Below, piece by piece: positions 27,522 to 62,059 of a DNA stretch of 64,000 bases. The DNA is from Agelas oroides (taxonomy: Eukaryota > Porifera > Demospongiae > Agelasida > Agelasidae): NCBI GenBank assembly GCA_949130485.1, contig OX422198.1:3707262-3771261 (forward strand), written 5' to 3'. Under the pieces are notes generated by a model, which was not told the DNA's origin, searched no databases, and saw only the letters and a program-made list of their open reading frames with translations. A program made the position numbers and the translations under genes. Within the stretch, counting starts at the first letter, position 1; each line of letters starts with the position of its first letter.

Positions 27522-27859
27522 TATTGCCAATATTGGTTCAGGATTCCAAGCAGTTGAGTGATCACAGAGCCAGCCTACCGTGAAGACAGATACAGATGTA
27601 GAGTTATTTACATTTACCAGTGAAATGGTATTAAATCTTACCGTGAAATAAGGTAGTGAAGGCTTTTCTTTATTGCTTGGCTACTCAATTCCATACCTTG
27701 TTGCATGCATGAAGCTGCCAGCTGCGCTGCGATGACACGTCGTGTGCACGTGCTATGGGATGGGCAACCATGGCAAGTACATGTAGATCTAGGCCTATTA
27801 TAGTCTACGAGCACTTGAAAAATAACACCTACTGAGCTGTAGCACTGAGCCAAAGCAGA

Positions 27860-31537: not shown

Positions 31538-34500
31538 GTACCAAGCTAAAGTTCAGTGAAGAGGCTATTGCTACTGCACAGGTGTTCTACCATACCTTTT
31601 ATTCTGTGATGGATCAAGATGACTATGAAGCAACTGTAAGTCCACCAAGTACATTAGGCTCATTTGCAGCTGATTGCTGTAGGGATTATGGGATGAACAA
31701 ACATTGTTACCATAACGATGGGGCAGTGATCAATGGTGCAAAGTTGGACACTATAAATCAGTAGACTGGAGACTGAGCTCTCGTTTGTTTCAAATGAAAC
31801 ACACTTAGCAGGTATGGTGAGTTTTAATTGGGTAGCTATGGTAGTTGGTATGATTATGTCCTTCGTGTAGCTACTAACCAATGCGTAGGCTACCTTATGT
31901 ACCACGTACAGTGCTCCAAATCAAGAAAGCAAAATTTTTAAAGTACTTCAACTTTCAAGTTAGTTCAACAGTCATGATTCACTATCAACATTTGAAGAAG
32001 AGAAGGAAGAGGAAGCAAGTTGGGGTGTCAGGTGGTGGAGCGCCAACACTGCTACGCACATCGTAGCTCCCATCTGTTAAGGCAAGGCTTGCATAATTAT
32101 GTAACCTGCGCCTTCTCCTAATGCGTGGGGATCATTGAGGGAGAGGGGAGGTGATGGCCACTTGTTCTGGATTGTGCTACTTGTGGGGGTGGGGGTGAAT
32201 AGTTCAGGGGATCCGGGTAAGGATTCTTCGTGCTGGGAGAAAATGAACTGTATCTCATAACTTTCTCCAAAGATGTAATGGCTTGCGAACAGCACATTTG
32301 ATGACATGCACATACTCCAAAAAGCTTCACCAAGCAGTTTCTTTACGTCATCATTAGCATTGAATTGTGTATTGTGTATTGTGTTAAGCAAATAGCATCA
32401 CAACAAAATCTTGTAAGTACCGTAGTGTCCTGTTAATACGCCCCCCCCATTTTGTACACTACATCCCGCCTAAGTTGGGGGGGGGGGGCTTATATTCGAG
32501 GATGCAATTAGTCTCGACTATAAGCCCCCCCCCCCAAAATATTTTACGCAAGTGCTATGTACGCAATTAGGACACTTCCAACTAACTATGGCGACGACTT
32601 TCAGGATCGAGAGTACTGTTCGCGGACATCACGTTTACAAAGCTGCGTGGTCTCCCTACATCGGAGAAGAGCTGCCAGTTCAACGCGAGGTCAATAACAT
32701 TCACGACGACTTCGCTGTAGCTGTCCTCAAGAACGGCAACACTGTCGGTCATGTACCACAGGAAATTTCCAGAGTCTGCTGGTATTTCTTGCACAAGAGT
32801 GGCAGCGAGATGACTTGCATCGTCAATGGTGACAGAAGACGTTCTGAAGTTGATGGGAAAGGACTCGTGGTTCCGTGCGTGTACATCTTCAGAGGGAAAC
32901 AAAAACACCTTGACAGACTGATAAACCTGTTTGCTAAACTAGCAGCTTAACATCTAACCGGCTTTTCTAAAAGCCACAAAACTTACAAAAGATTCACCGA
33001 CTACTATAGTCTTACTGAACGCACTTGCAACGTATAGTAAGCACGTGTAGTTTTGATGTTCCAGAAGACGCTCACCGGGGGGCGTTATAACGAGTCAAAC
33101 TACCCTGTGCAGGAACTTTGGCGGAAAAGAGGGGGGGGGCGTATTTTCGAAGGGGGCGTATTAGCGGGACACTACGGTAGATACTACTACATATGGGGTT
33201 CTAGTTGGAGCTGTTGCTGATATAGAAGAGCAGCATGCTAGTGTATGTGTGCTTGTGTCAATCTTTGCTGCTTTGTAGTTCTACAAGACTATAGGATAGT
33301 GCTTACTCCTGCTGCAGGACGTGACTTCCTTGTGGGCCATTTTCCAATCACTTTAGGTTGGACTTCATGCACAAGCACATGTTCAACTTCCGAACAGCTT
33401 CTTCATTAAATTCTCTGCAATCCTCTCATGCAACAACAATCTGCTCATACAAGAAAGCCACCATATTCCACACCATATTGGGTCTGCACCTAATAGTAGC
33501 TATCTATGTAGCATCCTTTCCCCTGTCATATGCTTGCATGGGAAAGGGTCCTACATATACAAAAGTGGCCAGATTAATACATGAGGGTACATTGTTAATT
33601 TAAGTGTGCTGACATGTCTCTGTATCAATGTAACTGTCCCCCATCTCTTTCTAAATCTGCATGGTTTCGTTGCTCTTCTCTCCCTAGTTAGTTGTTATGG
33701 CTGCTCTCAGTCTTGCTTCTAAGGTGCAAGAAGTGTCCACTGTCAAACTGGGGGATGTTGTGAATACTTGCCACAGGTACCATTTATATACCTGATACAT
33801 GTGCGCAACATGTGCATTCTTGCTGGAGATCAATAATTTAACTCATGATGGTGGTACATGAACAGTGTGATTCTGTTATGGCTAATACCATAAGAACTCT
33901 ATAATTAGGCATCACTCAGATTAAATGCCTATGAAAGTTCCTTATCAGCAAGGCGAGGTGAACAAGGTTTGCAGCTTACAGTTTAAAAGTGATTAAAAAT
34001 AATAAACTGTAGGCATTTTCTTTGAGTAGCTTAGTAGAGTAGTTCGAATCAACTCTTATTATTTTTAGTAAAAATACAAGTGGCGAACTACTTTTCTAAG
34101 CTATACTGAAGGGTGCTTATTGTAGAAACCTAGCTGAAGAGTGGCTCAGGAACCTTAGATCACCCCAGACACAGCAAAATAGTTGGGACTATTGCTGCAG
34201 TTATCATTTCTCACCATTGTTGATGTCTCTGCCATATCAGCTGTATCATGAATTTGACTGACAGGCAATGATAATCATCCAGCTGTATGCACTTATTTTA
34301 GCCATGTGATGCAACAATACATGGGAAATAAGTTTTCAAATAGTGATGCATCATTGAAATCTACCACCAGTTTGAGACTTTGCATTTTCAATCAAAAGAT
34401 TGCATTGGTATATATGTATTTCCATGGATGACAGGAGTTATGAGAGCCCTGTGTTTAAACGTTTGCTGATCAGTGGGTGTGGGTATAGGGTCATGGGTCT

Positions 34501-38062: not shown

Positions 38063-38332
38063 TTGTGTAGAAGAGACTTTGTACTTCACAAATATCTACT
38101 TTTCATAAGCGATATACGCGAACGACTGGCGTACGAGCGGCATCTGTCGACCTACCCGCCGAGCGATCGCGATAGGCGGTATACTCTAAGTGGTTACAAT
38201 TTGTTTCGCCCCATGCAACCAGGCCGACCTATATATCGCCGGATAGCCCGCAGAAAATGCTACAAAATATGCAAAAACGAGCCGTTTCTACCGGGTAGTT
38301 TTTGCGCTATGGACGCTTTTATTTGTAGGTAA
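38063..38332 (+). pseudogene. Basic small ORF in the inverted duplication, left arm
   Basis: About 89 residues, rich in Arg, Tyr and Cys, starting from a non-ATG codon. The same frame is found inverted at 39572-39916, where it continues for 25 more residues. Phrases include SDIRERLAYERHLSTYPPSDRD-like polar helix and YRRIARRKCYKICK. I do not recognise it. Conservation of the frame in both arms is expected from their high DNA identity and is weak evidence of coding. Confidence 0.35.
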
Positions 38333-39571
38333 TTGCCACCTGTTTTAGCCACGCGGGAGCTCAGATCAATGGAAATTTCGAGGCAAACAGAGACAGAGCA
38401 GCCCGTGTTGCGACTTGTGAACCAGCAAACTTCTGTCTAAGCATGTACCAACTGCTGGATGACTCAGAGAGCCTGCAGACAGGTTTGACTACTGAGTGTA
38501 CACCATGTTTTGCATCATTGGCATGCAACACAGCTATCCTGAGAGGCATATATCATTTACTTATGGATAACAAACTGTCTCAGCAGTTACAAGCCATGCA
38601 AGTTTTTGCAAGCTTGGATTACTTCATTCCAGTTTGCACTGTAGAGGCACACGCCATGAACGTTTGGACTGAACAGCCACCATATTGGAGTAACTTCTAT
38701 GGTCGAAAGAGATGCTTCTAGTTATTGAATCGGACAAGCTCCCACTGCTAAAACCTGCCATGTCAATCAATACCACATATCGACCATAAACCATAATACT
38801 TTCAGCTCGAAGTTTGGTATATGAGAATTAGGTGAAAGTACTGCATAGTGCTTCTTGAAAGTACCTCACACTTGAAAGGCACACCATTGGCTTAGTGTCT
38901 CAATCCTATACCACAAAGATGATCAATATAGATGCGACCAATGGAATCCAAACCCGGCCTATTGATAGCAGCTATTCTTCATTTTGCCTGTGTACACACT
39001 TGTGTCTTCCTAAACTGTCTCAAGTCTACTAAAATCCAAGTGCAACTTGCATTTTACGTATACAGTGCAGAACAATGAGTGGCTTGCTGGGCTAAGCTGA
39101 CTGGATATCACTCTGACATCCAAATTGTAGACGGCTAAACAGCTATGCAAATTGTTGTTTGCGTGGGCTCTTTATGCGACTGACGTAGCATACATCACCG
39201 GTTTTTTCATGTGTGTTGACACGCCCTAGCCCAAAAGTGCTGACAATGTCTCACAAGTCTTGGCCCCAGCATATCACAGAGTTGCTGCTTCTGTGATGCT
39301 CAGAAACTGTATCCAACAAGTTTATATACCCTAACTAGTATGGCATTCAGAAACTGGCTGTTCTGATGGTCGTGCTGAAGTCAAATCTGCTGAAGCAATG
39401 TTTCATTACCACACTCATGCACAGACTATCCCAATTTAGTGCCTCTCAAGATAGCATGCCAAATATGCAAGTACACTCAGAAAGTCAAACCTGTCTGCAG
39501 GCTCTCTGAGCCATCCAGCAGTTGGCACATGCTTAGACAGAAGTTTGCTGGTTCACAAGTCGCAACACGGG

Positions 39572-39916
39572 CTACTCTGTCTCTGTTTGCCTCGAAATTT
39601 CCATTGATCTCATTCTGAGCTCCCGCGTGGCTAAAACAGGTGGCAATTGCCTACAAATAAAAGCGTCCATAGCGCAAAAACTACCCGGTAGAAAGGGCTC
39701 GTTTTTGCATATTTTGTAGCATTTTCCGCGGGATATCCGGCGATATATAGGTCGGCCAGGTTGCATGGGGCGAAACAAATTGTAACCACTTAGAGTATAC
39801 CGCCTGTCGCGATCACTCGGCGGGTAGGTCGACAGATGCCGCTCGTACGCCAGTCGTTCGCGTATATCGCTTATGAAAAGTAGATATTTGTGAAGTACAA
39901 AGTCTCTTCTACACAA
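39572..39916 (-). pseudogene. Basic small ORF in the inverted duplication, right arm
   Basis: Mirror copy of the left-arm frame; open for 114 codons. It differs at a few residues, for example RRISRGK in place of RRIARRK. The function is unknown. It could be the DNA-binding end of a decayed transposase. Confidence 0.35.
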
Positions 39917-40822
39917 TCTGGCGCAAGTCCGGCTTGAATCGGTGCCTGCAGGAGAGAGCTGGCCTGTAGAAAAGACAGGAAGTAAGCGCCTTGCTAATTA
40001 TTAGCCAAATTCCACACTCCGTAGACTTCCGGTACTAAAATTAAAAGGGTCGCGTAAGGTGCCGGGTGAAAGCCGCATCCGGTGGGTGGAGCTAAGGGCG
40101 TGACCTATATCGTGTGACATATGAAGGATACACGTGCACCTGTTTGACATCTTGACATGACTGTTGTACTTTGACCTCGACTGCTGACTTGCTTGCTTGG
40201 CAAGGGCCAAGGCACACAGCCAACTGTTCTACAGCACTTCCTAAGGTATCCAGTAGAGATTTATATGTGTACCAATGCATCAGACCTCATAAAAACTCAG
40301 CAGGAGTCCAGCGGGTTGCATAAATCATGATCATGGCCTACTCTAGTACTAGGATTAACTAGTTCACTTAGTACTTCCAATTTCCAGAGATGATAACAAA
40401 ACGTGCATGTATTCCTGGTCAAGGGAGTAAATAGTCTCATGTCAAGCCATCTAGGCTCCCCAATGAAGAATAGCAGGTGCTTTGACTCAAATTCCTTGTC
40501 AAGAACGTATATGTCCAGCAAATTAAGAATGGAGCACTGATACAGTTCACTCTTTGTCACTATTGATTATACACTCCTTGATTTTGTTGGCCATCCGATA
40601 TTCCAAGCATCCTATTGACAAGAATATTGAATTAAACCACCAGACTCAGAGATTGTGGATAAGCGTAATCTGGGGACTGACATCACTACTTGTAGCCACT
40701 TTGATTGATGCTCAAGCCTTGTGCTATCAGTGACAGCTATAAATCATACCCATTTCTCTGTACTACTCCTAAGAAACGTGTAGTCACATGGTTGTTGGAT
40801 GCAAACAGTTCGTTGATTTTTA

Positions 40823-43560: not shown

Positions 43561-44310
43561 TAAGTATTCTTTCATGAGAGCACACCTTACTCATCTAACT
43601 CAGACCAGTATATAGTATCTCTTTCTCTTGGTGCATGTTCATAACATTTAGCCTGATCATTTTGTGGGGGTTTAAGCTTAAAAGTAAACAATTTAGATAT
43701 TGTAAAGTTCCCTTTGAGCAACAATTATTGAGAGGCCCCACATCAAAATGTTGCTGCTTGCATCTTCAGGAACCATTTCAGAATCCCACCTCAAAGATCC
43801 CAAGTGCTTACTGAATGTACAAGTGGTGGCCTCTTATGCTACTCAGACATTTTTGTAACCCCCACTACCATAAGTGTAGCAACCAGTATATACATCTCAC
43901 ACAGAGAGAAGTTAGTTTAGAATGAGTAAGGGTGTTATGATGCTTGTTCAGAGCTACTTACACTAAAGGGAATGTTGTTGTGGTAGGTTGTTGATGTCAG
44001 TCTCGATGTGTATAGACCATCACAAAGCAAGATAAAGTTAAAATTGGTTGCAGTGAACTTATTATTTTGACAAGATCTGGATCATACTTTTATCACATAT
44101 TTCACATATCAGGAGAAATGTTGTTTTTTTTTGTGTGCATGAATCAGTAAAGAGTACAAAATATGCCTTTAGCTATACACATTACGTATTTAGTGGATAC
44201 ATTTTTTTTTGTCTGAAACATAGTATCTAGCTATATCAAATAAATCAAGGATAACTGTAGTGTACAATATCAAAAGCAACAAATGATGATTTAAATTTGC
44301 TTGCAGAGCT

Positions 44311-46212
44311 CTACATTGAACCATAGGGCACCAGGCTATTTACACCAGCCTGTGGTTGGCAGTCACTTTGAGAATCCCCTTCTCCACCACTTGAACTGTT
44401 TGTTGCTGGAAGAAGTGGTTGGTACATGTCAGGATTTACAATCCTGTCAGGGAGATCTTCATTGTCACCTCTCTGAATGTGCTGGTACTGGTTTTCATTT
44501 CTTGCTAGGAGGATTTTTTTAATCCTGCTGCAACAAGCACGAAACAGTGCCACTTGAGAGAGGATTTTGTACAAAATAAACGATGTAAAATACAAGAAAG
44601 GGGTTAACAGAATCACATATAGCAATGGAATATAATAATGTACATTTGTTGTGTGGGTATACATCATCAAGAAGGTTGTTAAAGCCACTAAAGCAAATGC
44701 TAAAGAGTCTATAACGTTAAAATAGTTGTTCTTGTATGGACGAAATAGAGCAAATAATAAGGATATGACAACAGGAACTGGTATTGTTATCAGCCACCTA
44801 ATAACTCTAGGCTGTGCAATGAATCCTACCAATAGTACAACTCGAAACAATAAGTACAGTCCAGCAAAGTAGCGATAGTCACGAGTACCATTTGTGCCAT
44901 TCTTGTAACATCCCTGGAAGGCATCAGCAAATGTATGCAGAAATTGCCACCTTATTCTAGTGCAGTAGCCAAGACATCTCTGGAATGATCTCATGGGGTA
45001 CAAGAGGAGAAGTAACAGTGGAAATACAACAAACACCAGCAGGACACTTATTGCAGGCAGAGCGAAGGGAAGGTGTTGCCGGCTGAAGTATTCAATTGAA
45101 GCATCATAGTAGAGTACATCTGGACCAAATGTTTTGCCTGTGTTATTGTATAGTGTGCTAGTGTCCAGTAGTTTGTAGGATACCGTCAGAAGCTTTGAAT
45201 AGGACAGCAGTAGGAAAGTAGCAAAAGTATTGATTACAGAACCCTTGGGATTCCACCTCCTTCTGAATTGAGCAAAGCACACATGGAATGGCCTCCACAC
45301 ACAAACTACCACCCTAACTCCACTGTCATACATCTCAACACAAACATAAATCACTAATGTCAGCAAAAGTGGGTAAACAGCAACAATATACTCCAGTGCT
45401 AGCATGTAAAGTGTACTCATGTCACTGCTGATACAAAACAAAGGAATAGAGTATTGAAAGAAATCTAAATTCCAGATCCCGTAAAAAGTCAGTAATGCAA
45501 GTTCAAAGAACTGTATTGCTGTTAGATGAGTGGCAGAGTAAACATATGTATAGGCATAAGGGCTTAAGAGTGTGCTTGCACATGTTATGTACTGACAGAG
45601 AAACACAAAAGCATTCATTTCAGCAGAGGTTACATGAAACTGGAAAACCATCACCAAGAAACACAAAATGGTTGCAGGAAACAAGGTAGCTGAAATATAC
45701 ACCAGCCACCCATATCGTTTATCAAAGCACTCTACACACTGCCATTTGTAGGAGAGAACAGCAGGTCCCAAACCTTTTTGACATCGGCTGCACAACAGAC
45801 CAGTTCGGTTCAAACCACTGCACATGAAGCTGTTTAGTTCAGAAGTGTCATTTGGGAGAGTGACAAAGAAAATCTGAGCTCCAGCATGGTGGTTGCTGAA
45901 TGGACATCCTCCTGCAACTGTTTCTTTGGTTGTGTCATTGTAACTCATACAGTAGCCAGCAGAAATTAGAATCTCTTGGGTAGTGTAATTACACACTATA
46001 CTATCATCTAATGTAGCACCACACACACACCTGGTCACTCCATTGTACTTTGTCTCCCGGTACCAAGTTGGACAAGACTGCTCCTGTACAATACTTGATC
46101 TCCCTCTCTGACTACCATCTAGTGTCTTAGCATCCTTAGTTGCTGGGTGTAGCTCACTACCCCAACACGAGCTGATCATGAACACAATCACTATGCACTC
46201 ATACGTTGCCAT
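44311..46212 (-). CDS. Cys-rich multipass membrane protein, intact copy
   Basis: 633 residues in one exon from an ATG followed by a signal peptide (about 1-19). The extracellular part to about 165 has paired cysteines and several N-glycosylation sites, ending in a GLLCSRCQKGLGP motif (138-150). About ten hydrophobic segments follow between 168 and 548. Conserved blocks are NPKGSVINTFATFLLLSYSKLL (321-342), FADAFQGCYKNGT (428-440), then RDYRYFAGLYLLFR, and FRPYKNNYFNVID (490-502). These blocks mark a large family in sponges, cnidarians and choanoflagellates, in which a GLCxxC extracellular motif precedes a multi-helix, channel- or receptor-like core. Its function is unknown. The cytoplasmic tail (about 556-633) has acidic and Ser-rich stretches and ends YGSM. 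Two broken paralogues lie at 52714 and 59122. Confidence 0.8.
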   Translation of the reverse strand: MATYECIVIVFMISSCWGSELHPATKDAKTLDGSQRGRSSIVQEQSCPTWYRETKYNGVTRCVCGATLDDSIVCNYTTQEILISAGYCMSYNDTTKETVAGGCPFSNHHAGAQIFFVTLPNDTSELNSFMCSGLNRTGLLCSRCQKGLGPAVLSYKWQCVECFDKRYGWLVYISATLFPATILCFLVMVFQFHVTSAEMNAFVFLCQYITCASTLLSPYAYTYVYSATHLTAIQFFELALLTFYGIWNLDFFQYSIPLFCISSDMSTLYMLALEYIVAVYPLLLTLVIYVCVEMYDSGVRVVVCVWRPFHVCFAQFRRRWNPKGSVINTFATFLLLSYSKLLTVSYKLLDTSTLYNNTGKTFGPDVLYYDASIEYFSRQHLPFALPAISVLLVFVVFPLLLLLLYPMRSFQRCLGYCTRIRWQFLHTFADAFQGCYKNGTNGTRDYRYFAGLYLLFRVVLLVGFIAQPRVIRWLITIPVPVVISLLFALFRPYKNNYFNVIDSLAFALVALTTFLMMYTHTTNVHYYIPLLYVILLTPFLYFTSFILYKILSQVALFRACCSRIKKILLARNENQYQHIQRGDNEDLPDRIVNPDMYQPLLPATNSSSGGEGDSQSDCQPQAGVNSLVPYGSM

Positions 46213-46519
46213 CTTTATTCTTCAACAGGTGCACATGTACAGCTGCTGCACACAGGATTAACAATGAAATGTATACTGCTGTAAGGTTCACTGTATGTGT
46301 GCACAAACCACTAACAACAATATAAGGTTAGCTATACTATTGACCAAGCAATGAATTTCCCCCGAACTCTAAAACTACAATGGTAGCAACAAAAAGATAA
46401 ACAGATGGGGATGTTATTCTAATCCTTAAATGGTAATTGGATTTATACCTGGATATAGCTAGCAAACCCACTTACAGATGATTGGAAACTCCCTGGAAGA
46501 GCAGTGTTTTTGAGCGTAC

Positions 46520-46562
46520 CAAAAAACAACAACAAAAAACAACAACAACAACAACAAAAATA
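46520..46562. repeat. (AAC)n microsatellite
   Basis: Interrupted AAC repeats upstream of the intact membrane gene; repeated at 54925-54960 in unit B and absent from unit C near 61255, where the sequence has a deletion. Confidence 0.9.
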
Positions 46563-48011
46563 CCAGTAACTCATCTAGCTGTAACTGCCCCATCCATTAG
46601 CTACTAATGCCCCACTCACTTAATCTTAACTACCCCAGACCCAGTGAGTTAATAACCTCACTGTTTTCAGCTCCACACTCAATTTGTGTGCAGAAAACCC
46701 CACACCTAAAGGAGTAATGATGTGTCAGCTGGTGATGGTGCCCCCCCACTCAACACAACAACTTCGATATTCTTTACTTGCCATACCACTGAAAGTGATG
46801 AAAATTGTGGGTGCACTACTGCAATGTGAGAGCCTGGATACAAAACATGTGGACAAACATAGGTTGAGTGTGGTGCACGTCAACATAGCTTATACTTTCA
46901 GTACAGGCAAGATGCATCACAGTGATTGCATGAGCTTCAATGTGTTGCATAAACGTGTCATAAGGCATTTGATGTGGATGTAGTAGCTATTGTTATTTGG
47001 TTCCTCTATTAGGTGAGGCTGGAGGATGACATGCAACAACGTATGCAACTAGAACGATTTAGCTATGCACACCTACACACATAGTTTCGACAGCATAGGA
47101 CAAAATACATAATACTAATTTATAGCTGCACACACTTTAGCAGCATAAAAGTTATTGCATAAGTATTATTAAGTTTTCACGTGCAAGGTTTGATCTGTGA
47201 TAATGCCAAAATCTGTATCTTGTACTAAAGATAGCTGAAGCAAGACCGTGGAGGTTTCGTGGACAAACACTCACATTAGGACCATTACCTGAATGGTACT
47301 GACAAAGACTATCTGCCAATCTGTTTGGTCTAATTATTCTGGATTTGTATACCATTACAAATATGGCAGCATGCAGTGTGGCTGTCAGGAGCTGCCTCCT
47401 TTCCTACAGCATGCATCATTTGTAAATTTTCGCTTGCAGTGACTACGATCATTATTACATTATTGATGACCTTAATTGTTTTCTTCCTTGCATGCTATTC
47501 CATTCTTTAAAACGAACTTTTGTTTAGGGCAAGACACACACAGGGCAAAGAAGGCATGAGGATGATTCTCCTTGTGATGATCATCACAGTGTTGACACTG
47601 CATGCTGCCATATTTGTAATGGTGATAAGTATACTTAATAAATCCAGAATAGTGTTGATCCATCAATTGTACAGATGATTGACTGGACAGCAGTTCATAC
47701 AAAAGCCTACCACGATTACAGTCTGTTGGCTAGGATCATAAAACACTGCATCACCCTCTATAATCTATCGTCACACCCCACACCTCATTACGTCATTATG
47801 TTGTTTGTTTGTTTGTTTTTAATTGTGTAGGAATGCTCCTTCAGCCTGTAATGGCCGGTCTCCAGGAGGTCCTCAAACAGATAAAGAGAAAAACAACAAC
47901 AACAACAGCAAAAAAACAAGCAAACAAAAAACAAAACAAAGTACAAACACGCATAAGAGTGTGCAGAAGAACAATGACACAATACTGAATAAAATCAGCA
48001 AAGGATTGTAA

Positions 48012-49302
48012 TTGGGGCGAGCCTGAGCGAGCCCCACACTAGCGTGACTGCATTGCGCACGCGTGTGTGTAACTAACTATCTATGCTTGTTTGGGCCGTC
48101 CACTTACCGGAAATTTTAAAGAAATTTTAAATCTGCGGACTTACGAAAATTGTACGTGCACGTGCACATTTCAAATTCAGATTTGAGTGCTGATATGATC
48201 ATGGTATCAGAGTGCAGCGTCAGGAACCCTGAGGAAGACGACTGAAGTTGAAGGACGCGTACAAATTTTAATATGGACGGTGGTTGACGGATCGCTTCAG
48301 GTGAGCGGGCCATGGATAAACGGCACTCAGAAATGCCAGAAATTAGCTCAGTCCATGCATGTGTAGCCACGTTAGCTGCCCTGGCAGGTCGGTTTCAGGT
48401 CAGGGCCATGCATATTATTATTAAAACGGCACTCATAAACGCCATGAAATCCAGCTCATGATTTCAGTGCAAAGCTTAGTCCACGCATGTGTAGCCCAGG
48501 CTGGAGAAATTGTTGCAACTTGTTGGCGTATGTGATACCTAGCTATAGGGCTTATTATATACTTGTGCGTCATCAGGTTTGGCTTATTACGCTCATGTAG
48601 CAGTAGACAGTGACAAATCCTGCTGTGTGCCATGACAAGTTAACATTTGACATTTGAAGCAAAGCAAAAACCCTTTTAAAGCCCCCTGTGAATGGTAAAT
48701 GGATGTGCATGTAGGAGGATAATTGTGTTACATCACTCATCAGTGACATAATATCCTGTATCAGCTTGCTCAGGGTCGCCCCCACAATGTTCTACATTTT
48801 CTAGTTATGTACTATGCAATATACACAGTAGTTGGGGCGAGCCTGAGCGAGCCCCACACTAGCGGGACTGCATTGCGCAGATGTGTGTGTATACGACCAT
48901 ACGTGCTTGTTTGCTTGCGGCCATATACCGTAAATTTTAAATGCGCGTTTAAATATTTCCCGAAAATTGAACGTCCTCGTGCACTTGGTAGGGCAACGCT
49001 GGGCCTACTGCCACAGTGCAGCGTTGGCAACTGTAGCGGAGACGGCTCAAGTTTAAGCACGCACTGCACCTTACTTCTTCTTTGTCACAGCAGCTACGAA
49101 ACGACCATCAACGGCAGGCTGCTTGCTGACCGTACAAAATTATAAACGCCGGTTTGAGATCGCTTCAGGTAAGGATCGTGCATAAACGACACTCATAAAC
49201 GCTAGCGATTCAGCTCATCATTTCAGCGTTAAAGTCTATTCATGTGCATGGAGCGGCTTGCTCAGGCTCGCCCCAACAATGTTCTACATTTTCTAGTACT
49301 AT
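48012..49302. mobile_element. Two adjacent GGGGCGAGCC-ended elements
   Basis: Copies at about 48012-48803 and 48831-49302 start TTGGGGCGAGCCTGAGCGAG and end with the inverse, CTCAGGCTCGCCCCAAC (slightly altered in the first). Both continue to the same tail acaatgttctacattttctag. The shorter copy lacks interior sequence. A third fragment starts at 49388. No protein gene. Confidence 0.65.
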
Positions 49303-49342
49303 AAAAAGTCACAACACTGTGTATGCACGTACTGCCCTTTTA

Positions 49343-49919
49343 AGGTAGGACAACCTTGAATCGCGCCGATTCCGCTCATGAATAATTGGGGCGAGCCCCA
49401 CGCTTGCTTGCTTGCTTGCTTGCTTGCATGCATGCATGCAATGACAGGGAGTAGGTTTGTGGGCATTATACTCCCTGGCCTGGAGGTGAGCGGGAAAAAG
49501 CGTACATAGTTTTGTAGGGGGTGAGTTTACCTTTCTGTAACTGGGCTCAGTTTTGGTTGGTTTGAGTGGAGCTGTGTCGAATTTTGCTTCAAAGCCAGCA
49601 CAGCCAAAATTACTGTTTTTGAGGTCAAATGTGTGTTTTGGCCTGTAGACTGGGATTGAAGTGGTCTCAGGACAAATCCATACGTAAACTTTCTACTTGT
49701 TTTGTGTGTGTGTTGATGATGTGGTCAGACTGGGGGTGGAGCCTTGGAGAGGGTGCAAATTTTTATTTTAGCTGAGGGACTAAAAATTGAGTTTTTTGGC
49801 ATTATCAGGTAGAGAAAGCACTTTGGTACAAACTTTTTGTGAATCTTGAGTACACTTAGACATTACCCATCCATCCGTCCACATGACTCGGAGATTTGTG
49901 ATTCAAGGTTGTCCTACCT
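49343..49919. mobile_element. TA-flanked TIR element
   Basis: Ends AGGTAGGACAACCTTGAATC (right end inverted), flanked by TA at 49341-49342 and 49920-49921. 577 bases. It contains a GGGGCGAGCCCC fragment and (GCTT)n/(GCAT)n runs. No transposase seen. Confidence 0.8.
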
Positions 49920-49929
49920 TACAAGCAGC

Positions 49930-50810
49930 TGAGTTAGTTAGTTCTGATGGAAGCCGGTTCCATGATAGAGCAGCTTGAAATTCAAACGAATTTCAATAAA
50001 AGTTTGTACAGGGCCTCCTCAAGTGGATGTTATTTTGGCCTCGAGTTCTTGCATATTGCATTTCCCTATTCAATGTGAACTTTGAGTGAAGGTACTTGGG
50101 AGCCCCACTGTGTATGCACCTGTGGACAAGTGATAGCTGGAACACCTCTTGTCGTTGTGACAGTGTCATCCAGTGTAACTTACTTCTCAGTGTTTCACTA
50201 GGTGTGTATCTACAAGAGGAAGTGATAATCCTCATCCCGTAGTTCTGTATCTGTTCCACGTTTTGAGTGAGGACAGATCCACATGAATGCCACAACACAC
50301 AGCAGTAGTCTAAGTGAGGTAATACAAGTGCATTGTATATCTTCACTCAAGTGGGAGTGGGGAGAAAGTAGCTGACTCTTCGCAACTTGTACAGACTTAT
50401 GAAGCATTTTTGCCTTACATGCTGAATGTGTTCCTTCCATTTGAGTTGGCTGTCCACTGTGACCCCGAGGTACCGAATACTCCCCTTACGACCACTCCTC
50501 TATGACTAATTATGAGGTTGTCGCACACATTTCTCTTCCTATTCCTACAGAGAACCATAAGCTGCGTCTTCCCAATGTTCATTTTCAAGTTATTGGCATC
50601 AATCCAAAACACTACTGCCTCCAAGTCAGCTTTCCAATGCATACTTCACCTCCTGAGGATCCCTGCAGCAGCAATAGAGAGTAGTGTCATCAGCGTAGAG
50701 ATTGACTGTGCACTGTTTCTCAACTGTTTGCAGGTCAGACACTGTAAATAGAAGCAGACCCAGGATTGATCCTAGCAGGACACATCTCCATGGTAGCTTG
50801 CTCCTTACGC
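49930..50810 (-). pseudogene. Non-LTR retrotransposon reverse transcriptase relic
   Basis: Minus-strand pieces in order encode, with frame changes: a YADD catalytic box (50697-50686) in an LYADDTTLY context; LEAVVFWIDANNLKMN and IGKTQLMVL; a block with the sense of YLGVTVDSQLKW in another frame; and KIYNALVLPHLDYCCVLW with the finger-like LHWMTLSQRQEVFQLSLVHR block and SFEFQAALSWNRLP at the end. This is the thumb and C-terminal region of a Jockey/CR1-type reverse transcriptase. It is 5'-truncated, with stop codons and frameshifts. Confidence 0.8.
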
Positions 50811-51190
50811 ATCACATCGATGATCTCAAAAATATTGGGATGAAATTTTCACACTATTTTTTTCAGTCGTGAATTCCAGCCTTCCACATGATTGTTGGTC
50901 CTTGGCCCATGGCAGTCATAGTAGTTACACTGACTAATTCTGTATTGACCATTGACCCAAGTGTGTTCTCCTCTGCAAGACTGCACAGTGGTCTCATGAG
51001 TAGTCACTTTTGCTGGACATCTCCAATACATGTGATCCTTGCCATCATGAATCTTGAGGTACTTATAGCCAGCTGCCAGGAACATTAACAACACACCAAC
51101 ACTGCCTCCCACCACACATGCAGCCACTCCGACCATGAAAGAAAACAGATCATCTGCCTCACACTTCAACAACTCCAATTTATAGTGAAA
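50780..51190 (-). pseudogene. Chimeric membrane-helix exon joined to FLYWCH/MULE fragment
   Basis: On the minus strand an exon-like frame reads LLKCEADDLFSF followed by a Gly/Val-rich helix (VGVAACVVGGSVGVLLMFLAA). It runs straight into YWRC, SCRGEH and GPRTNNHVEGWNSRLKK. The last phrase is typical of the region after MULE transposase domains in FLYWCH-type proteins. One in-frame stop is followed by KFHPNIFEIIDVMRKEQ in the same frame. The helix exon occurs alone near 63838-63975, where it ends in a GTGAG donor; the chimeric joint is exactly at that donor. Confidence 0.55.
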
Positions 51191-51429
51191 GCAGGTAAAT
51201 TCTCTGTTTCATTAAGTTGTATACTGAATTGCTCGACTGTTGGCTGTTGATACATAGCACATGATTTCTATGCTGGCGCTCATGATCATTTGTGTGTACT
51301 TGCATACAAATCACAGTGATAAAGTTGTGCAACCAACATGTTAACACAAGATATACATCGTTACCTACATGCCTATCAGTGTCTCCACGACTGAAATACG
51401 ACATAACAATCAATATCAATCATTTCTGT

Positions 51430-54400
51430 AACATCTGAAAACGTAAATCTTGTTATCAAACATGTAAAGGACGATGTATATCTTGTTCCAGTGTAATACC
51501 CCATCTTCCAACAAGAGATTTTTTAACTAGAGCACACCTTACTCATCTAACTCAGACCAGTATATAGTATCTCTTTCTCTTGGGGCATGTTCATAACATT
51601 TAGCCCGATGATTTTGTGGGGTTTTAAGCATAAAAGTAAACAATTTAGATATTGTAAAGTTTCCTTTGAGCAACAATTATTGAGAGGCCCCACATCAAAA
51701 TGTTGCTGCTTGCATCTTCAGGAACCATTTCAGAATCCCACCTCAAAGATCCCAAGTGCTTACTGAATGTACAAGTGGTGGCCTCTTATGCCACTCAGAC
51801 ATTTTTGTTACCCCCACTACCATAAGTGTAGCTACCAGTATATACATCTCACACAGAGAGAAGTTAGTTTAGAATGAGTAAGGGTGTTATGATGCTTGTG
51901 CTGTACATACACCAAGTTTATGCTGTGCTAGATTCATTACAAATTAATGCTAAATTCTGCTTAATTGTTGTAATGACTGAATGCTTACAAGAGAACATCA
52001 ACACTAGTGTAATGTATAAACAATTTTTGGCAGTAGCACGAGTAAAGAGCTGAGTCTAGAGTGATATACAAACATGTTGTCATGAGGTAACTTGAAGCTA
52101 CAAATATAATGGACAATTTGCATTGCATTTCAAAGGTTGCTACACTTAATCGGTAAAACAGTATGCTTGCAATGTTCAATAGGCTATCACACTATGTACA
52201 GCACCTTATGTTTAGCGATCATTTTCAGGAATTTTCCTCTCTACCACTTGAACTCTTTGTTACTGCAAGAAGTGATTGATGCATGTTAGGATTCACAACC
52301 TTGTCAGGAAGATCTTGATTGTCACTTCTCTGAATGGGCAGCTGTCTTGTTGGAAGATCACGCCCACGTCAACTATATAGCTAACTAAACCAACAGCTAG
52401 TGTGCAGGAGTGAGTGAAAGCAAAGGTGCGCAGCACACACACACACACAATGTGCATCAATGGTGGTTGGGATATGCTGTCAAGATCTGGATCATACCTT
52501 CATTATGTATTTCACATATCAGGAGAAATGGGGTGCATGAATCAGTAAAGAGAGTACAAAATATGCCTTTATTGTACAATTAGTAGGTAGACGCAATTTT
52601 GTTGTCTGAAACATAGTAAAATATATCTAGCTATATCACATAAATCAAGGGTAACTGTAGTATATGGTATCAAAAGCTACACACACTGATTTGAATAACG
52701 TGCTTGCAGAGCTCTACATTGAACCATAGGGCACCAGGCTATTTACACCAGCCTGTGGTTGACGGTCACTTTGAGAATTTCCCTCACAAACACTTGAATG
52801 GTTTGTTGCTGGAAGAAGTGGTTGGTACATGTTAGGATTGACAATCCTGTCAGGAAGATCTTCATTGTCACCTCTCTGAATGTGCTGGTGCTGGTTTTCA
52901 TTTCTTGCTAGGAGGATTCTTTTAAGCCTGCTGCAACAAGCACGAAACAGTGCCACTTGAGAGAGGATCTTGTACAAAATAAAGGATATAAAATACAAGA
53001 AGGGAATTAACAGAATCACATACAGTAATGGAATATAATAATGTACATGTGTTGTATAGGTATACCTTATCAAGAAGGTTGAGAAAGCCACTAAAGCAAA
53101 TCCTAAACAGTCTATAACGTTAAAATAGTTATTCTTGTACGGACGAAATAGAGCAAATAATAAAGAGATGACAACAGGAACTGGTATTATTATCAGCCAC
53201 ATAAAAGCACCTGGCTGTGCAATGAATCCTACCAACAAAACAACTCGAAACAATAAGTACAGTCCAGCAAAGTAGCGATAGTCACGAGTACCATTTGTGC
53301 CATTCTTGTAACATCCCTGGAAGGCATCAGCAAATGTATGCAGAAATTGCCACCTTATTCTAGTGCAGTAGCCAAGACATCTCTGGAATGATCTCATGCA
53401 TGGGGTACAAGAGGAGAAGAAACAGTGGGAAAACAACAAACACTAGCAGGATACATATTGCAAGCAGAGCAAAGGGAAGGTGTTGCCGGCTGAAGTATTC
53501 AATTGAAGCATCATAGTAGAGTACATCTGGACCAAATGTTTGGCCTGTGTTATTGTATAGTGTATTAGTGTCCAGTAGTTTGTAGGATACCGTCAGAAGC
53601 TTTGAATAGGACAGCAGCAGGAAAGTAGCGAAAGTATTGATTACAGAACCCTTGGGATTCCACCTCCTTCTGAATCGAGCAAAACACATGTGGAATGGCC
53701 TCCACACACAAACCACCACCCTAACTCCACTGTCGTACATCTCAACACAAACATAAATCACTAATGTCAGCAAAAGTGGATAAACAGCAACAATATACTC
53801 CAGTGCTAGCATGTAAAGTGTACTCATGTCATTGCTGATACAAAATGAAGGAATAAAATATTGAAAGAAATCTAAATTCCAGATCCCATAGAAAGTCAGT
53901 AATGCAAATTCAAAGAACTGTATTGCTGTTAAACGAGAGGCAGCATAAACATATGCATAGGTATAAGGGCTTACGAGTGTGGTTGCACATGTTATGAACT
54001 GACAGAGAAACACAAAAGCATTCATTTCAGCAGAGGTTACATGAAACTGGAAAACCATCACCAAGAAACACAAAATGGTTGCAGGAAACAAGGTAGCTGA
54101 AATATACACCAGCCACCCATATCGTTTATCAAAGCATTCTACACACTGCCATTTGTAAGGGAGAACAGCAGGTCCTAAACCATTTTTACACTGGCTGCAC
54201 AACAGACCAGTTCGGTTCAAACCACTGCACATGAAACTGTTTAGTTCAGAAGTGTCATTTGGAAGAGTGACATAGAAAATCTGAGCACCAACATGGTGGT
54301 TGCTGAATGGACATTCTCCTGCAACTGTTTCTTTGGTTGTGTCATTGTAACTCATACAGTAGCCAGCAAAAATGAGAGTCTCTTGGGTAGTGTAATTACA

Positions 54401-56340
54401 CACTATATTATCATCTAATGTAGCACCACACACACACCTGGTCACTCCATTGTACTTTGTCTCCCGGTACCAAGTTGGACAAGGCTGCTCCTGTACAACA
54501 ATTGATCTCCCTCTCTGACTGTCATCTAGTGTCTTAGCATCCTTAGTTGCTGGGTGTAGTTCACTACCCCAACACGAGCTGATCATGAACACAATCACTA
54601 TGCACTCATACGTTGCCATCTTTATTCTTCAGCAAGTGCACAGCTGCTGCACACAGGATTAACAATGAAATGTATACTGCTGTAAGGTTCACTGTATCTG
54701 TGCACAAACCACTAATAACAATATAAGGTTAGCATACTATTGACCAAGCAATGAATTTCCCTGAACTCTAAAACCACAATGGTAGCAACAAAAAGATAAA
54801 CAGACGGGGGATGTTATTCTAATCCTTAAATGGTAATTGGATTTATACCTGGATATAGCTAGCAAACCCACTTACAGATGATTGGAAACTCCCTGAAAGA
54901 GCAGTGTTTTTGAGCGTACCAAAAAACAACAACAAAAAAACAACAACAACAACAACAAAAATACCAGTAACTCATCTAGCTGTAACTGCCCCATCCATTA
55001 GCTACTAATGTCCCACTCACTTAATCTTAACTACCCTAGACCCACACTCAATTTGTGTGCAGAAAACCCCACACCTAAAGGAGTAATGATGTGTCAGCTG
55101 GTGATGGTGCCCCCTCCCCCCCCCCCCACTCAACACAACAACTTCGATATTCTTTACTTGCCATACCACTGAAAGTGATGAAAATTGTGGGTGCACTACT
55201 GCAATGTGAGAGCCTGGATGCAAAACATGTGGACAAACATAGGTTGAGTGTGGTGCACGTCAATCCTCTACAATGCCTCAATGATTTTCCCTACCATGCA
55301 TACCTCAGATAACATAGCTGTAGTTTGCTTATACTTTCAGTACAGGCAAGATGCATCACAGTGATTGCATGAGCTTCAATGTGTTGCATAAACGTGTCAT
55401 AAGGCATTTGATGTGGATGTAGTAGCTATTGCTATTTGGTTCCTCTATCAGGTGAGGCTGGAGGATGACATGCAACAACGTATGCAACTAGAACGATTTA
55501 GCTATGCACACCTACACACATAGTTTCGATAGCATAGGACTAAATACATATACTAATTTATAGCTGCACACACTTTAGCAGCATAAAAGGTATTGCATAA
55601 GTATTATTAAGTTTTCACGTGCAAGGTTTGATCTGTGATAATGTGGTTATGCCAAAATCTGTATCTTGTACCAAAGATAGCTGAAGCAAGACCGTGGAGG
55701 TTTCGTGGACAAACACTCACATTAGGACCATTACCTGAATGGTACTGACAAAGACTGTCTGTCAATCTGCTTGATGTAATTATTCTTGATTTGTATACCA
55801 TTACAAATATAGCAGCATGCAGTGTGGCTGTCAGGAGCTACCTCCTTTCCTACAGCATGCATCATTTCTATTACTGGAGCTTCTCTTTCTAAATTTTCGC
55901 TTGCAGTGACTACGATCACTCTGCATTATTATTACATTATTGATGACCTTAATTGTTTTCTTCTTTGCATGCTATTCCGTTCTTTAAAACGAACTTTGTT
56001 TAGGGCAAGACACACACAGGGCAAAGAAGGCAATGAGGATGATTGTCCTTGTGATGATCACAGTGTCGACACTGCATGCTGCCATATTTGTAATGGTGAT
56101 AAGCATACTTAATAAATCCAGAATGGTGTTGATCCATCAATTGTACAGACAGTAGTTCATACAAAAGCCTACCACGATTACAGTCTGTTGGCTAGCATCA
56201 TAAAACACTGCATCATCCTCTATAATGGAGTGTCACACCCCCACACCTTGTGACTTCATTATGCTCCCCTCTCTGATCATTCACGTAGTACAATCAGTCA
56301 TCTCATACATAACTTTGCTCCCCATATGTAGCTAGACAGT
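51430..56340. repeat. Tandem segmental duplication, unit B
   Basis: Matches unit A over its gene and flanks. It has extra sequence at about 51900-52490 also present in unit C and absent from A. It keeps the empty site (TA at 52581-52582) for the HIRAN element that interrupts unit C. Confidence 0.85.
52714..54619 (-). pseudogene. Multipass membrane protein paralogue, frameshifted
   Basis: Same structure as the intact copy (signal peptide, Cys-rich part, about ten helices). CATG is duplicated (CATGCATG, 53395-53402, against CATG in the other copies), a +4 change that shifts the frame at residue about 407, after LLLLYPM. The upstream part is open from 54619 to 53360 and the rest is open in another frame from about 53439 to 52714. 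Either it is a young pseudogene or there is a sequencing error; all other codons look intact. The 4-bp direct duplication would fit slippage or a transposon footprint. Confidence 0.85.
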
Positions 56341-56371
56341 ACTACACACAAGGACAAACAGTCTGAAGTTT

Positions 56372-56700
56372 TGTTGCTACACTACCCTTCAGCTGCCAGT
56401 AGAGATTCCCAACCTCCATAGGAGGACTAGACTTGTGTAGACACCTGTGGTATGTTGACAATAGATGACATGTTTGCAATAGATAACAACAATCAGATTC
56501 TGATACTTTGAATTAAGGATAAATGTTCGATATTTAATGTTCGATAGCTACCACACTGTCATCTGATCACGGTTATTTAATAACAAGTCCAGTTCTTCTC
56601 AGGAGGTTGAAGATCTAGTGCAGCAAAACTCAATAACTTGGAAACAACTGAAATTCACTTTAAAGTCCAAGTTCCCCACTTAGTCTAGTCCTGTGTTTAT
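56372..56700. pseudogene. Two fragments of a cyclin-Q exon
   Basis: 56372-56465 (minus) and 56583-56760 (plus) resemble the third recognised cyclin-Q exon (34961-35093) and its flanks. Shared words are acaccacaggtgtctacac, aagtctagtcctc and gtgtcatgtgcaca (the last from the intron). Because intron sequence is included, this is a genomic duplication and not a retrocopy. The two are in opposite orientation and do not keep an open frame. Confidence 0.75.
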
Positions 56701-58248
56701 TCATGTTGACATGTATGGTTTGACTGGCTTGTTTGGTGGTGGGTGTCATGTGCACAGCCATCTGCATGCATGGTAACAGATACTAGAGTACTATTTGTAC
56801 TATTGCACAATTACACTTGGCAAGGTTGAGGCTATTTAGAATCCAAGGTCAAACAAAAACAATTGCATTCTTCATTGTCCAAATCTCATTGTTGTGTCCT
56901 GCAGTGTCAGATTTGTTGAGTTACCTAAACTTGTAGGAATGTAGGAATCAGCATGGTGCAAAAAGCAGCTCAGAACATCTGAAACATAATTCTTGTCATC
57001 AAACATGTAAAGGAGACTATTCCAGTGTGAGCCAAGTCTGAGATAATACCCTATCTTCCAACAACAGATTTTTTAACTAGAGTACACCTTACTCATCTAA
57101 CTCAGACCAGTATATATAGTATCTCTTTCTCTTGGGGCATGTTCATAACATTTAGCCCGATGATTTTGTGGGGTTTTAAGCTTAAAAGTAAACAGTTTAG
57201 ATATTGTAAAGTTTCCTTTGAGCAACAATTATTGAGAGGCCCCACATCAAAATGTTGCTGCTTGCATCTTCAGGAACCATTTCAGAATCCCACCTCAAAG
57301 ATCCCAAGTGCTTACTGAATGTACAAGTGCTGGCCTCTTATGCAACTCAGACATTTTTGTAACCCCCACTACCATAAGTGTAGCTACATCTCACACAGAG
57401 AGAAGTTAGTTTAGAATGAGTAAGGGTGTTATGATGCTTGTTCAGAGCAACTTACACTAAAGGGAATATCGTTGTGGTAGGTTGTTGATGTTAGTCTCGA
57501 TGTGTAGACCATCACAAAGCAAGATAAAGTTTGAAGTAACTTGAAGCTTGCATGGTTGCAGTGAACTTCTTATTATTTTGACAAAACTGCCATACACCAA
57601 GTTTATGCTGTGCTAGATTCATTACAAATTAATGCTAAATTCTGCTTAATTGTTGTCATGACTACATGCTTACAAGAGAACATCAACACTAGTGTAATGT
57701 ATAAACAATTTTTGGCAGTAGCACGAGTAGAGCTGAGTCAAATGTGATATACAAACATGTTGTCATGAGGTAACTTGAAGCTACAAATATAATGGACAAT
57801 TTGCATAGCATTTCAGAGGTTGCTACACTTAATTGGTAAAACAGTATGCTTGCAATGTTCAATAGGCTATCACACTATGTACAGCAGCTTATGTTTAGCG
57901 ATCATTTTCGGGACTTTTCCTCTCTACACTTAAAGTCTTTGTTACTGCAAGAAGTGATTGGTGCATGCTAGGATTCACAACCTTGTCAGGAAGATCTTGA
58001 TTGTCACTTCTCTGAATGGGCAGCTGTCTTGTTGGAAGATCATGCCCACGTCAACTATAGCTAACTAAACCAACAGCTAGTGTGCAGGAGTGAGTGAAAG
58101 CAAAGGTGCACAGCACACACACACACAATGTGCATCAATGGTGGGATATGCTGTCAAGATCTAGATCATACCTTCATTATGTATTTCACATATCAGGAGA
58201 AATGGGGTGCATGAATCAGTAAAGAGAGTACAAAATATTGTGCAATTA

Positions 58249-58997
58249 CCGTAGTGTCCCGCTAATACGCCCCCCCCCCCCTCTTTTCCGCCAAAGTTCC
58301 TGCACAGGGTAGTTTGACTCGTTATAACGCCCCCCCGGTGAGCGTCTTCTGGAACATCAAAACTACACGTGCTTACTATACGTTGCAAGTGCGTTCAGTA
58401 AGACTATAGTAGTCGGTGAATCTTTTGTAAGTTTTGTGGCTTTTAGAAAAGGCGGTTAGATGTTCCAAGTTTTAAGCTGCTAGTTTAGCAAACAGGTTTA
58501 TCAGTCTATCAAGGTGTTTTTGTTTCCCTCTGAAGATGTACACGCACGGAACCACGAGTCCTTTCCCATCAACTTCAGAACGTCTTCTGTCACCATTGAC
58601 GATGCAAGTCATCTCGCTGCCACTCTTGTGCAAGAAATACCAGCAGACTCTGGAAATTTCCCGTGGTACATGACCGACAGTGTTGCCGTTCTTGAGGACA
58701 GCTACAGCGAAGTCGTCGTGAATGTTATTGACCTCGCGTTGAACTGGCAGCTCTTCTCCGATGTAGGGAGACCACGCAGCTTTGTAAACGTGATGTCCGC
58801 GAACAGTACTCTCGATCCTGAAAGTCGTCGCCATAGTTAGTTGATAGTGAAAGGCATTGATTTCATAGGGGGGGGGGGGGGGGGGGGGCTTATAGTCGAG
58901 ACTAATTGCATCCTCGAATATAAGCCCCCCCCCCCCCCCCCACTTTAGGCGGGATGTAGTGTACAAAATGGGGGGGCGTATTAACGGGACACTACGG
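58249..58997 (-). mobile_element. HIRAN-carrying TIR element, copy 2
   Basis: 749 bases, inverted relative to copy 1, with ends CCGTAGTGTCC and TA at 58247-58248 and 58998-58999. Unit B shows the same site with a single TA (52581-52582). Its poly-G/poly-C tracts are longer than in copy 1. The stretch between the C-run palindrome and the ATG differs from copy 1, while the rest is almost the same. Confidence 0.9.
58472..58834 (-). CDS. HIRAN-domain protein, copy 2
   Basis: 120 residues, identical to copy 1 except Arg for Gln in GHVP[Q/R]E. The upstream frame is also open but starts with proline and glycine runs from the poly-C tract, so I take the ATG shared with copy 1. It is intact, with the same HIRAN motifs. 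It lies downstream of the third membrane-gene copy on the same strand. Confidence 0.85.
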   Translation of the reverse strand: MATTFRIESTVRGHHVYKAAWSPYIGEELPVQREVNNIHDDFAVAVLKNGNTVGHVPREISRVCWYFLHKSGSEMTCIVNGDRRRSEVDGKGLVVPCVYIFRGKQKHLDRLINLFAKLAA

Positions 58998-59121
58998 TAG
59001 TAGGTAGACGCAATTTTTTTTGTCTGAAACATAGTAAAATATATCAAATAAATCAAGGATAACTGTAGTGTACGATATCAAAAGCAACAAAGGATGATTT
59101 AAATAATGTGCTCGCAGAGCT

Positions 59122-61034
59122 CTACATTGAACCATAGGGCACCAGGCTATTTACACCAGCCTGTGGTTGACAGTCACTTTGAGAATCCCCTTCACCACTT
59201 GAATTATTTGTTGCTGGAAGAAGTGGTTGGTACATGTCAGGATTTACAATCCTGTCAGGAAGATCGTCATTGTCACCTCTCTGAATGTGCTGGTACTGGT
59301 TTTCAGTTCTTGCTTGAAGGATTTTTTTAAGCCTTCTGCAACAAGCTCGAAACAGTGCCACTTGAGAGAGGATTTTGTACAAAATAAATGATATAAAGTA
59401 CAAGAAGGGAATCAACAGTATCACATACACTAACTGAATATATAAATGTACATGTGTTGTATGTGTATACATTATCAAGAAGGTTGATAAAGCCACTAAA
59501 GCAAATGCTAAACAGTCTATAATGTTGAAATAGTTATTCTTGTACGGACGAAAGAGAGCAAATAATAAAGAGATGACAACAGGAACTGGTACTGTTATCA
59601 GCCACCTAAAAGCACTTGGCTGTGCAATGAATCCTACCAATAGTACAACTCGAAACAATAAGTATAGTCCAGCAAAGTAGCGATAGTCACAAGTACCGTT
59701 TGTGCCATTCTTGTAACATCCCTGGAAGGCATCAGCAAATGTGTGCATAAATTGCCACCTTATTCTAGTGCAGTAGCCAAGACATCTCTGGAATGATCTC
59801 ATGGGGTACAAGAGGAGAAGTAACAGTGGAAATACAACAAACACTAGCAGGACACATAGTGCAAGCACAGCAAATGGAAGGTGTTGTTGGCTGAAGTATT
59901 CAATTGAAGCATCATAGTAGAGTACATCCGGACCAAATGTTTGGCCTGTGTTAGTGTATAGTGTACTAGTGTCCAGTAGTTTGTAAGATACTGTCAGAAG
60001 CTTTGAATAGGACAGCAGCAGGAAAGTAGCGAAAGTGTTGATTACAGAACCCTTGGGATTCCACCTCCTTCTGAATCGAGTGAAGCAAACATGGAATGGC
60101 CTCCACACACAAACCACCACCCTAACTCCACTGTCATACATCTCAACACAAACATAAATCACTAATGTCAGCAACAGTGGATAAACAGCAACAATATATT
60201 CCAGTGCTAGCACATGAAGTGTAGTCATGTCACTGCTGATACAAAACAAAGGAATAAAGTATTGAAAAAAATCTAAATTCCAGATCCCATAGAAAGTCAG
60301 TAATGCAAATTCAAAAAATTGAATTGCTGTTAAACGAGTGGCAGAGTAAACATATGTATAGGTATGAGGGCTTAAGAGTGTGCTTGCACATGTTATGAAC
60401 TGACAGAGAAACACAAAAGCATTCATTTCAGCAGAGGTCACATGAAGCTGGAAAATTATTACTAAGAAACATAAAATGGTTGCAGGAAACAAGGTAGCTG
60501 AAATATACACGAGCCACCCATATCGTTTGTCAAAGCACTCTACACACTGCCATTTGTAGGAGAGAACAGCAGGTCCTAAACCTTTTTGACATTGGCTGCA
60601 CAACAAACCAGTTCGGTTCAACCCGCTGCACATGAAGCTGTTTAGTTCAGAAGTGTCATTTGGGAGAGTGACAAAAAAAGTCTGAGCACCAACATGGTGG
60701 TTGCTGAATGGACATCCTCCTGCAACTGTTTCTTTGGTTGTGTCATTGTAACTTATACAGTAGCCAGCAAAAATGAGAGTCTCTTGGGTAGTGTAATTAC
60801 ACACTATATTATCATCTAATGTAGCACCACACACACACCTGGTCACTCTATTGTACTTTGTCTCCCGGTACCAAGTTGGACAAGGCTGCTCCTGTACAAT
60901 ACTTGATCTCCCTCTCTGACTGTCATCTAGCATTTTAGGCTTTTATTTTTAGCAGCCTTAGTTGCTGGGTGTAGCTCACTACCCCAACACGAGCTGATCA
61001 TGAACACAATCACTATGCACTCATACATTGCCAT
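59122..61034 (-). pseudogene. Multipass membrane protein paralogue with disrupted leader
   Basis: From 60933 to 59122 it is open and carries the same blocks as the intact copy: GLLCSQCQKGLGP, NPKGSVINTFATFLLLSYSKLL and FADAFQGCYKNGTNGT. The signal peptide start at 61034 is present (MAMYECIVIVFM...), but about 14 extra bases near 60931-60950 (a T-rich stretch on the plus strand) shift the frame and give a stop after about 32 codons. Translation from the internal Met at 60933 would lack a signal peptide. Likely a pseudogene unless splicing removes the insert. Confidence 0.8.
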
Positions 61035-62059
61035 CTTTATTCTTCAGCAAGTGCACAGCTGCTGCACACAGGATTAACAATGAAATGTATACTGCTTTAA
61101 GGTTCACTGTATCTGTGCACAAACCACTAATAACAATATAAGGTTGGCACACTATTGACCAAGCAATGAATTCCCCCAAAGTCTAAAACTACAATGAAAT
61201 TTATCTAGCAACAGAAAGATAAACAGACGGGGGTGGTTATTGTAATCCTTAAACGGTAATACCAGTAACTCTTCTAGCTGTAACTGCCCCATCCATTAGC
61301 TACTAATGGCCCACTCACTTAATGTTAACTACCCTAAACCCAGTGAGTTAATAATCTCACTGTTTTCAGCTCCACACTCAATTTGGGAAAACCCCACACC
61401 TAAAGGAGTAACGATGTGCTAGCCAGTGTTGGTGCTCCCCCATTTGACACAACAACTTCTTTACTCGCCATAGCACTGAAAGTGATGAAAATTGTGGATG
61501 CATGCACTGCTGCAAGCACTGAAAGATGAGAATGTGAGAGCCTGGATACAAAACTTGTGGACAGATTGGTTGGATGTGGGCATGTCAATCATTTAGAACA
61601 TCTGAATGATTTTCCCTACCATGCATACCTCAGATAACATAGCTGTAGTTTGCTTTCAGTACAGGCAAGATGCATCACAGTGATTGCATGAGCTTCAATG
61701 TGTTGCATAAACGTGTCATAAGGCATTTGATGTGGGTGTAGTAGCTATTGTTATTTGGTTCCTCTATCAGGTGAGGCTGGAGGATGACATGCAACAGGGC
61801 ATACAACTAGAACGATTTAGCTATGCACACCTACACACATAGTTTCGATAGTACAGGACAAAACACACATACTAATATATAGCTGCACACACTTTATTAG
61901 TGTAAAGTTATTGCATGAGCATTATTAATTTTAAAACTTCTGTTTTCACATGTGCAAGGTTTTTATCTGTGATAATGTGGTTATGCCAAAATCTGACCAT
62001 GCATGCTACGGCCATGGTATACAAGTAACAGCACAAGTATACTATGAACAAACCACCTT

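Follow-up and report, generated by a model that had tools for sequence, protein, structure and literature searches.

The window, by which we mean the whole 64-kb stretch of DNA analyzed here, contains a 749-bp element (copy C, 58249..58997) with a HIRAN gene inside, and the best reading of this element is a recently mobile, non-autonomous terminal inverted repeat (TIR) transposon with a TA target. Inverted ends, a duplicated TA, an empty site, two independent insertions and an intact HIRAN open reading frame (ORF) in both copies of the element were all observed, and on each of these points the results support the initial annotation of this DNA, which had proposed a mobile element carrying a HIRAN gene.

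Copy C, for which we use the strand of its HIRAN gene (minus), has CCGTAGTGTCC at its start and the reverse complement of CCGTAGTGTCC at its finish, with TA on either side (58247..58248 and 58998..58999). Its left TIR (58249..58276, plus strand) is 28 nt long and differs by one mismatch from the right one (58970..58997, minus strand), in agreement with the earlier description of a 749-base element with inverted ends between two TAs; with the TAs included, the inverted arms measure 30 nt at 97%. When the CCGTAGTGTCC 11-mer was searched for in the window with up to one mismatch, four occurrences were found, all four of them exact, and they mark both ends of each copy of the element. The mean in shuffled sequence was 0.41, and none of 100 shuffles reached four. 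The 26-base TIR consensus likewise has exactly four perfect places in the 64 kb, the next best place having eight mismatches. The end motif TAATACG/TATAACG/TATAAG-CCCCC recurs inside the element, one of the inner repeats (TATAACGCCCCCCC; 58315..58336, plus strand) being 77% identical, across 22 nt, to the sequence of the ends, and these repeats could be extra transposase-binding sites. We also considered a CENP-B-box-like motif in the TIR, which was rejected because it misses the consensus by one base of spacing. A little upstream of the HIRAN start lies a palindrome with arms of 26-29 nt, a 12-nt spacer and long runs of G and C. In copy C (58872..58941), its arms are 29 nt long and 97% complementary around a 12-nt spacer, and in the second copy of the element (32475..32538) they are 26 nt long and 92% complementary.

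Copy C lies in a region (44068-61260) made up of three repeated units, A, B and C, of a membrane-protein-like gene, which are paralogues on the same strand with a mutual identity of ~92%. No Pfam family matched the unit-B ORF, and six-frame scans of the region gave HIRAN alone. The same flank with a single TA and no insert had been reported in unit B (52581..52582). When we compared the 300-bp flanks of copy C with unit B, bases 1-290 of the left flank matched 52267-52564 at 95.6% and bases 1-300 of the right flank matched 52581-52892 at 87.9%. The two flanks, rejoined, align across that one TA of unit B, confirming the empty site apart from 8 extra bases that unit B has ~11 bases ahead of the TA; the left BLAST match ends at these extra bases, which are unrelated to the insertion. 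The place in unit A that matches the insertion (44160-44200) is too diverged to show whether it is an empty site or bears the footprint of an excision, and unit A was for this reason dropped as a second empty site.

The second copy of 758 bases is present as first described, on the plus strand at 32420..33177 (copy I), with TA to its left (32418..32419) and right (33178..33179), and is thus opposite in orientation to copy C. It had been placed in a cyclin-Q intron. Cyclin-like exons do surround copy I, on weak matches: Cyclin_N at ~33.7 kb (E 0.055) and CycT2-like_C at ~35.5 kb (E 0.011) both fall below the Pfam cut-off, and a further cyclin-like exon at ~31.5 kb was recognized by eye. The placement in an intron is tentative, and for the host gene "cyclin-like" is as far as the evidence goes. 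Similarity between the two copies spans exactly TA to TA (32418-33179 vs. 58247-58999), and a comparison of the 300-bp flanks of copies I and C gave no similarity. Since the similarity ends at the TAs and the flanks are unrelated, one element was inserted twice, independently, and the copies do not sit within a larger duplication, a situation that the initial annotation had named as damaging to its own reading.

These boundaries also bear on the reading of the element as a product of assembly or segmental duplication. Large near-perfect inverted repeats, a possible type of assembly artefact, are present elsewhere in the window (10964-12099 and 37933-40046), but the copies resemble each other precisely as far as the TIR and TA at either end and no further, and at its TA the empty site of unit B is clean. 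We regard an artefact as highly improbable. The repeat at 10964-12099 is a near-perfect palindrome with 526-nt arms, 98% complementary, an 84-nt spacer and mirrored ORFs; the ORF of one arm was without a Pfam family, and the structure is either a fold-back element or an artefact of assembly. At 37933-40046, inverted repeats (433 nt at 97% and 128 nt at 98%) surround ~1 kb, and the part that was scanned (37982-38718) gave no Pfam match. The separate insertions bear also on the idea that two end sequences came by chance to lie around a host HIRAN gene, which was then moved once or twice, leaving few copies and a local curiosity. Just two copies are visible in the 64 kb searched, as such a history would predict, but the two TA insertions have unrelated flanks and opposite orientation and lie within 26 kb of each other, which suggests a dispersed family and leaves chance flanking a slim prospect. 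A stretch of 64 kb is too small for counting the copies of a family.

Aligned to each other, copies I and C have 709 identical, 11 substituted and 67 gapped columns. The substitutions include one in an end, two at the G run and five just before the HIRAN start, with two more in the 363-base ORF and one after it. From the C/G run to the start of HIRAN, the two copies hold unrelated tracts (58844-58867 in copy C and 32536-32578 in copy I), 24 bases long in one and 43 in the other; elsewhere the copies are near-identical apart from gaps and run lengths. When the upstream tracts were compared with the rest of either element, nothing rose above shuffled sequence, 135 to 186 of 200 shuffles scoring as high or higher. 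The differing tracts may have arisen when repair switched templates at the C run.

Both copies encode the same intronless protein of 120 residues plus stop, at 58472..58834 (minus strand) in copy C and 32588..32950 (plus strand) in copy I, with R58Q as the sole residue difference and a single silent change besides. With just two changes in a 363-base ORF and two near-identical copies, dN/dS or any other test of selection is not usable here. The protein from copy C matched HIRAN (PF08797) at profile positions 21-82 of 96 with an E value of 9e-8 and 32.3 bits, against a gathering cut-off of 24.7; HIRAN in copy I, scanned only within a long frame, scored 24.0 bits, just below that cut-off. HIRAN is the only Pfam-recognized gene in either element, and the full 120-codon ORF in both copies, with nothing else recognized by Pfam, matches the earlier statement that an intact HIRAN gene is the only one inside. 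The proposal that HIRAN genes here travel as cargo implied that they should have these ends, and within the 64-kb window two of two do.

Among relatives of solved structure at E ≤10, all five distinct sequences were HIRAN chains of HLTF. The best HLTF HIRAN alignment (E 0.0021) covers 66 residues, 10-75, of the protein. By our own mapping from the printed alignment, N90 and N91 of HLTF are conserved as N36 and N37. HLTF residues Y72 and Y93 stack on DNA bases, and out of eight HLTF single and double mutants only the 90/91 double mutant fully impaired function (PMC4666394). By the same mapping, the position of Y72 is A20, with W21 adjacent, and that of Y93 is H39; neither is a tyrosine, and the DNA pocket is thus only partly conserved. 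The protein also differs from HLTF in being a stand-alone 120-residue HIRAN, lacking SNF2 and RING. A single-sequence AlphaFold model had a mean pLDDT of 34.1, too poor for use. The HIRAN domain of HLTF binds the 3'-OH at a single-stranded DNA end, and the HLTF fragment 1-180 is dominant negative on the processing of Cas9 breaks in vitro (PMC11237066). From these two observations on HLTF, a free HIRAN protein could plausibly shield DNA ends. The initial annotation had conjectured that the cargo might guard ends or recruit repair, a role that stays hypothetical given two near-identical copies and a DNA pocket conserved only in part.

The main competing explanation is that the transposon family inherits HIRAN as an accessory gene. 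An autonomous relative would then encode transposase plus HIRAN, the copies seen here would be deletion derivatives in which HIRAN was retained, and the protein would aid transposition, for instance by securing 3' ends once the element is excised or by steering gap repair. The intact ORF in both copies argues for this explanation, as do the retention of the asparagine pair needed for HLTF HIRAN function and the 3'-OH binding of HLTF HIRAN (PMC11237066). Precedents also exist among eukaryotic transposons that encode a DNA-binding or nuclease protein as a second product, namely ISL2EU with YqaJ and NuwaI with Myb/SANT (PMC4482050) and TBE with a zinc-finger protein (PMC7325037). The full ORF and two-gene transposons such as ISL2EU with YqaJ keep an accessory role alive. 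However, no transposase was found in the window and no related loci were found in viral or prokaryote contigs, and the two stacking tyrosines of HLTF are replaced here. On balance, we consider an inherited accessory gene possible but somewhat doubtful. The more ambitious version of this idea, an animal TA-target transposon family whose stand-alone HIRAN accessory factor grips 3' ends as the element is excised or inserted or as gaps are repaired, and stays intact because transposition then succeeds more often, appears unlikely.

Six-frame Pfam scans of the whole window (E ≤0.01, relaxed to E ≤10 for 28-36 kb) revealed no transposase in the element or anywhere in the window and detected HIRAN in these two copies only. 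Scanning long frames weakened HIRAN from E 9e-8 to 1.5e-5, and such scans, being less sensitive, could let a decayed transposase escape. Around the elements, HIRAN was the only Pfam match besides the weak cyclin matches; elsewhere in the window, the matches were to AIG1-type and other P-loop families, a VWA domain, PHD and DUF6570. An ORF on the minus strand at 26292-27680 combines GDIETNPGP, which we take to be a 2A-like motif, with a PHD finger and DUF6570, and is perhaps part of another mobile element. A candidate HIRAN remnant at 16912-16956 (E 0.32) was rejected as a chance match, being short and running through a stop.

Searches for relatives outside the window covered viral, prokaryote and phage collections, which are an unlikely home for an animal transposon, the host being taken for an animal on its gene content; the reach of the single-sequence pattern scans among these searches is restricted to close relatives. 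The TIR pattern had no match in viral contigs or in prokaryote genome contigs. For the HIRAN protein, one pattern match in viral contigs and 103 in prokaryote contigs yielded no confirmed relative, and tblastn against phages gave nothing. A degenerate RGHHVYK pattern retrieved a single locus from viral contigs, on a GC-rich IMG/VR contig, which we attribute to chance, with just 10 residues aligning (E 0.005). The HIRAN protein matched no NCBIfam family and had five weak partial matches in PHROGs (best E 0.0012), all of unknown function. The TIR sequence was matched to no named transposon family. Among the literature matches listed, none appeared to describe a stand-alone HIRAN gene inside a TIR element of a eukaryote; because the search covered open-licence literature only, this is weak evidence of absence.

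The explanation that we favor, and to which we assign an even chance, has a HIRAN gene captured from the host riding as a Pack-TYPE-like passenger in a non-autonomous DNA transposon that targets TA and has inverted ends of 26-28 nt. A complete intronless HIRAN gene would have been taken up from a host gene and placed between ends that a transposase made elsewhere would bind in trans, and the element would then have been excised and reinserted at TA by cut-and-paste. The enzyme supplied in trans would probably be of the Tc1/mariner or pogo type; as no transposase with these ends was seen, the superfamily is suggested by the TA and the TIR length only. The ORF may have stayed intact mainly through the youth of the copies. 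That the ORF is complete, from its start codon to its stop codon, speaks against a captured passenger, since Pack-TYPE elements are described as carriers of coding-gene fragments (PMC8903248).

If the HIRAN protein helps the element, this would be a transposon with its own DNA-end-binding factor, linking replication-fork repair proteins to animal mobile DNA. Should there prove to be a whole family with such an accessory factor, the stand-alone HIRAN genes of such animals would be largely transposon-derived. Even as a passenger, a whole gene for a repair-type domain would be copied around the genome by a short TIR element, and transposition of HIRAN is one possible route for multiplying stand-alone HIRAN genes.

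Several known kinds of element invite comparison. MITEs are short (under about 800 bp), have TIRs and lack a transposase. At 749 and 758 bp, with TIRs and no transposase found, the two copies resemble them, but both contain an intact HIRAN ORF, whereas MITEs have no coding capacity. The TA duplication at both copies and the TIR of 26-28 nt are shared with pogo/Tigger and Tc1/mariner transposons and their MITEs (PMC7386202, PMC7325037), a comparison that also takes in the inner repeats of the end motif. Families of pogo use TA target sites and usually have TIRs of ≤40 bp, and Tigger has been reported from Porifera and Cnidaria, among others (PMC7386202). The element differs from pogo/Tigger and Tc1/mariner in that a gene is carried, the TIR was matched to no named family, and no transposase was found; the DDE transposase by which IS630-Tc1-mariner/pogo membership is judged was absent from scans of the element and the window. 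With ISL2EU and other two-ORF transposons, the element shares the carriage of a protein of DNA-binding or DNA-cutting type, but ISL2EU has an AT duplication, YqaJ and a transposase in place of the TA, HIRAN and lack of a detected transposase seen here (PMC4482050). Six-frame Pfam scans of the window gave no YqaJ.

HIRAN itself has been associated with mobile DNA before. In bacteria, HIRAN genes are found beside mobile DNA in HipA/diDNase clusters (PMC11706625), and HIRAN domains are known in phages (PMC7785012). It has been suggested that the HIRAN domain of eukaryotes derives from restriction-modification systems or from similar mobile elements of bacteria (PMC2292703). The nearest kind to the element described here are the Pack-TYPE elements, including the Pack-Mariner elements that exist in rice (PMC8903248), which like it are non-autonomous, have TIRs and a target-site duplication, and hold coding DNA between their ends without a transposase; the element differs from the Pack-Mariner elements of rice in carrying a complete ORF and in having what is apparently an animal host.
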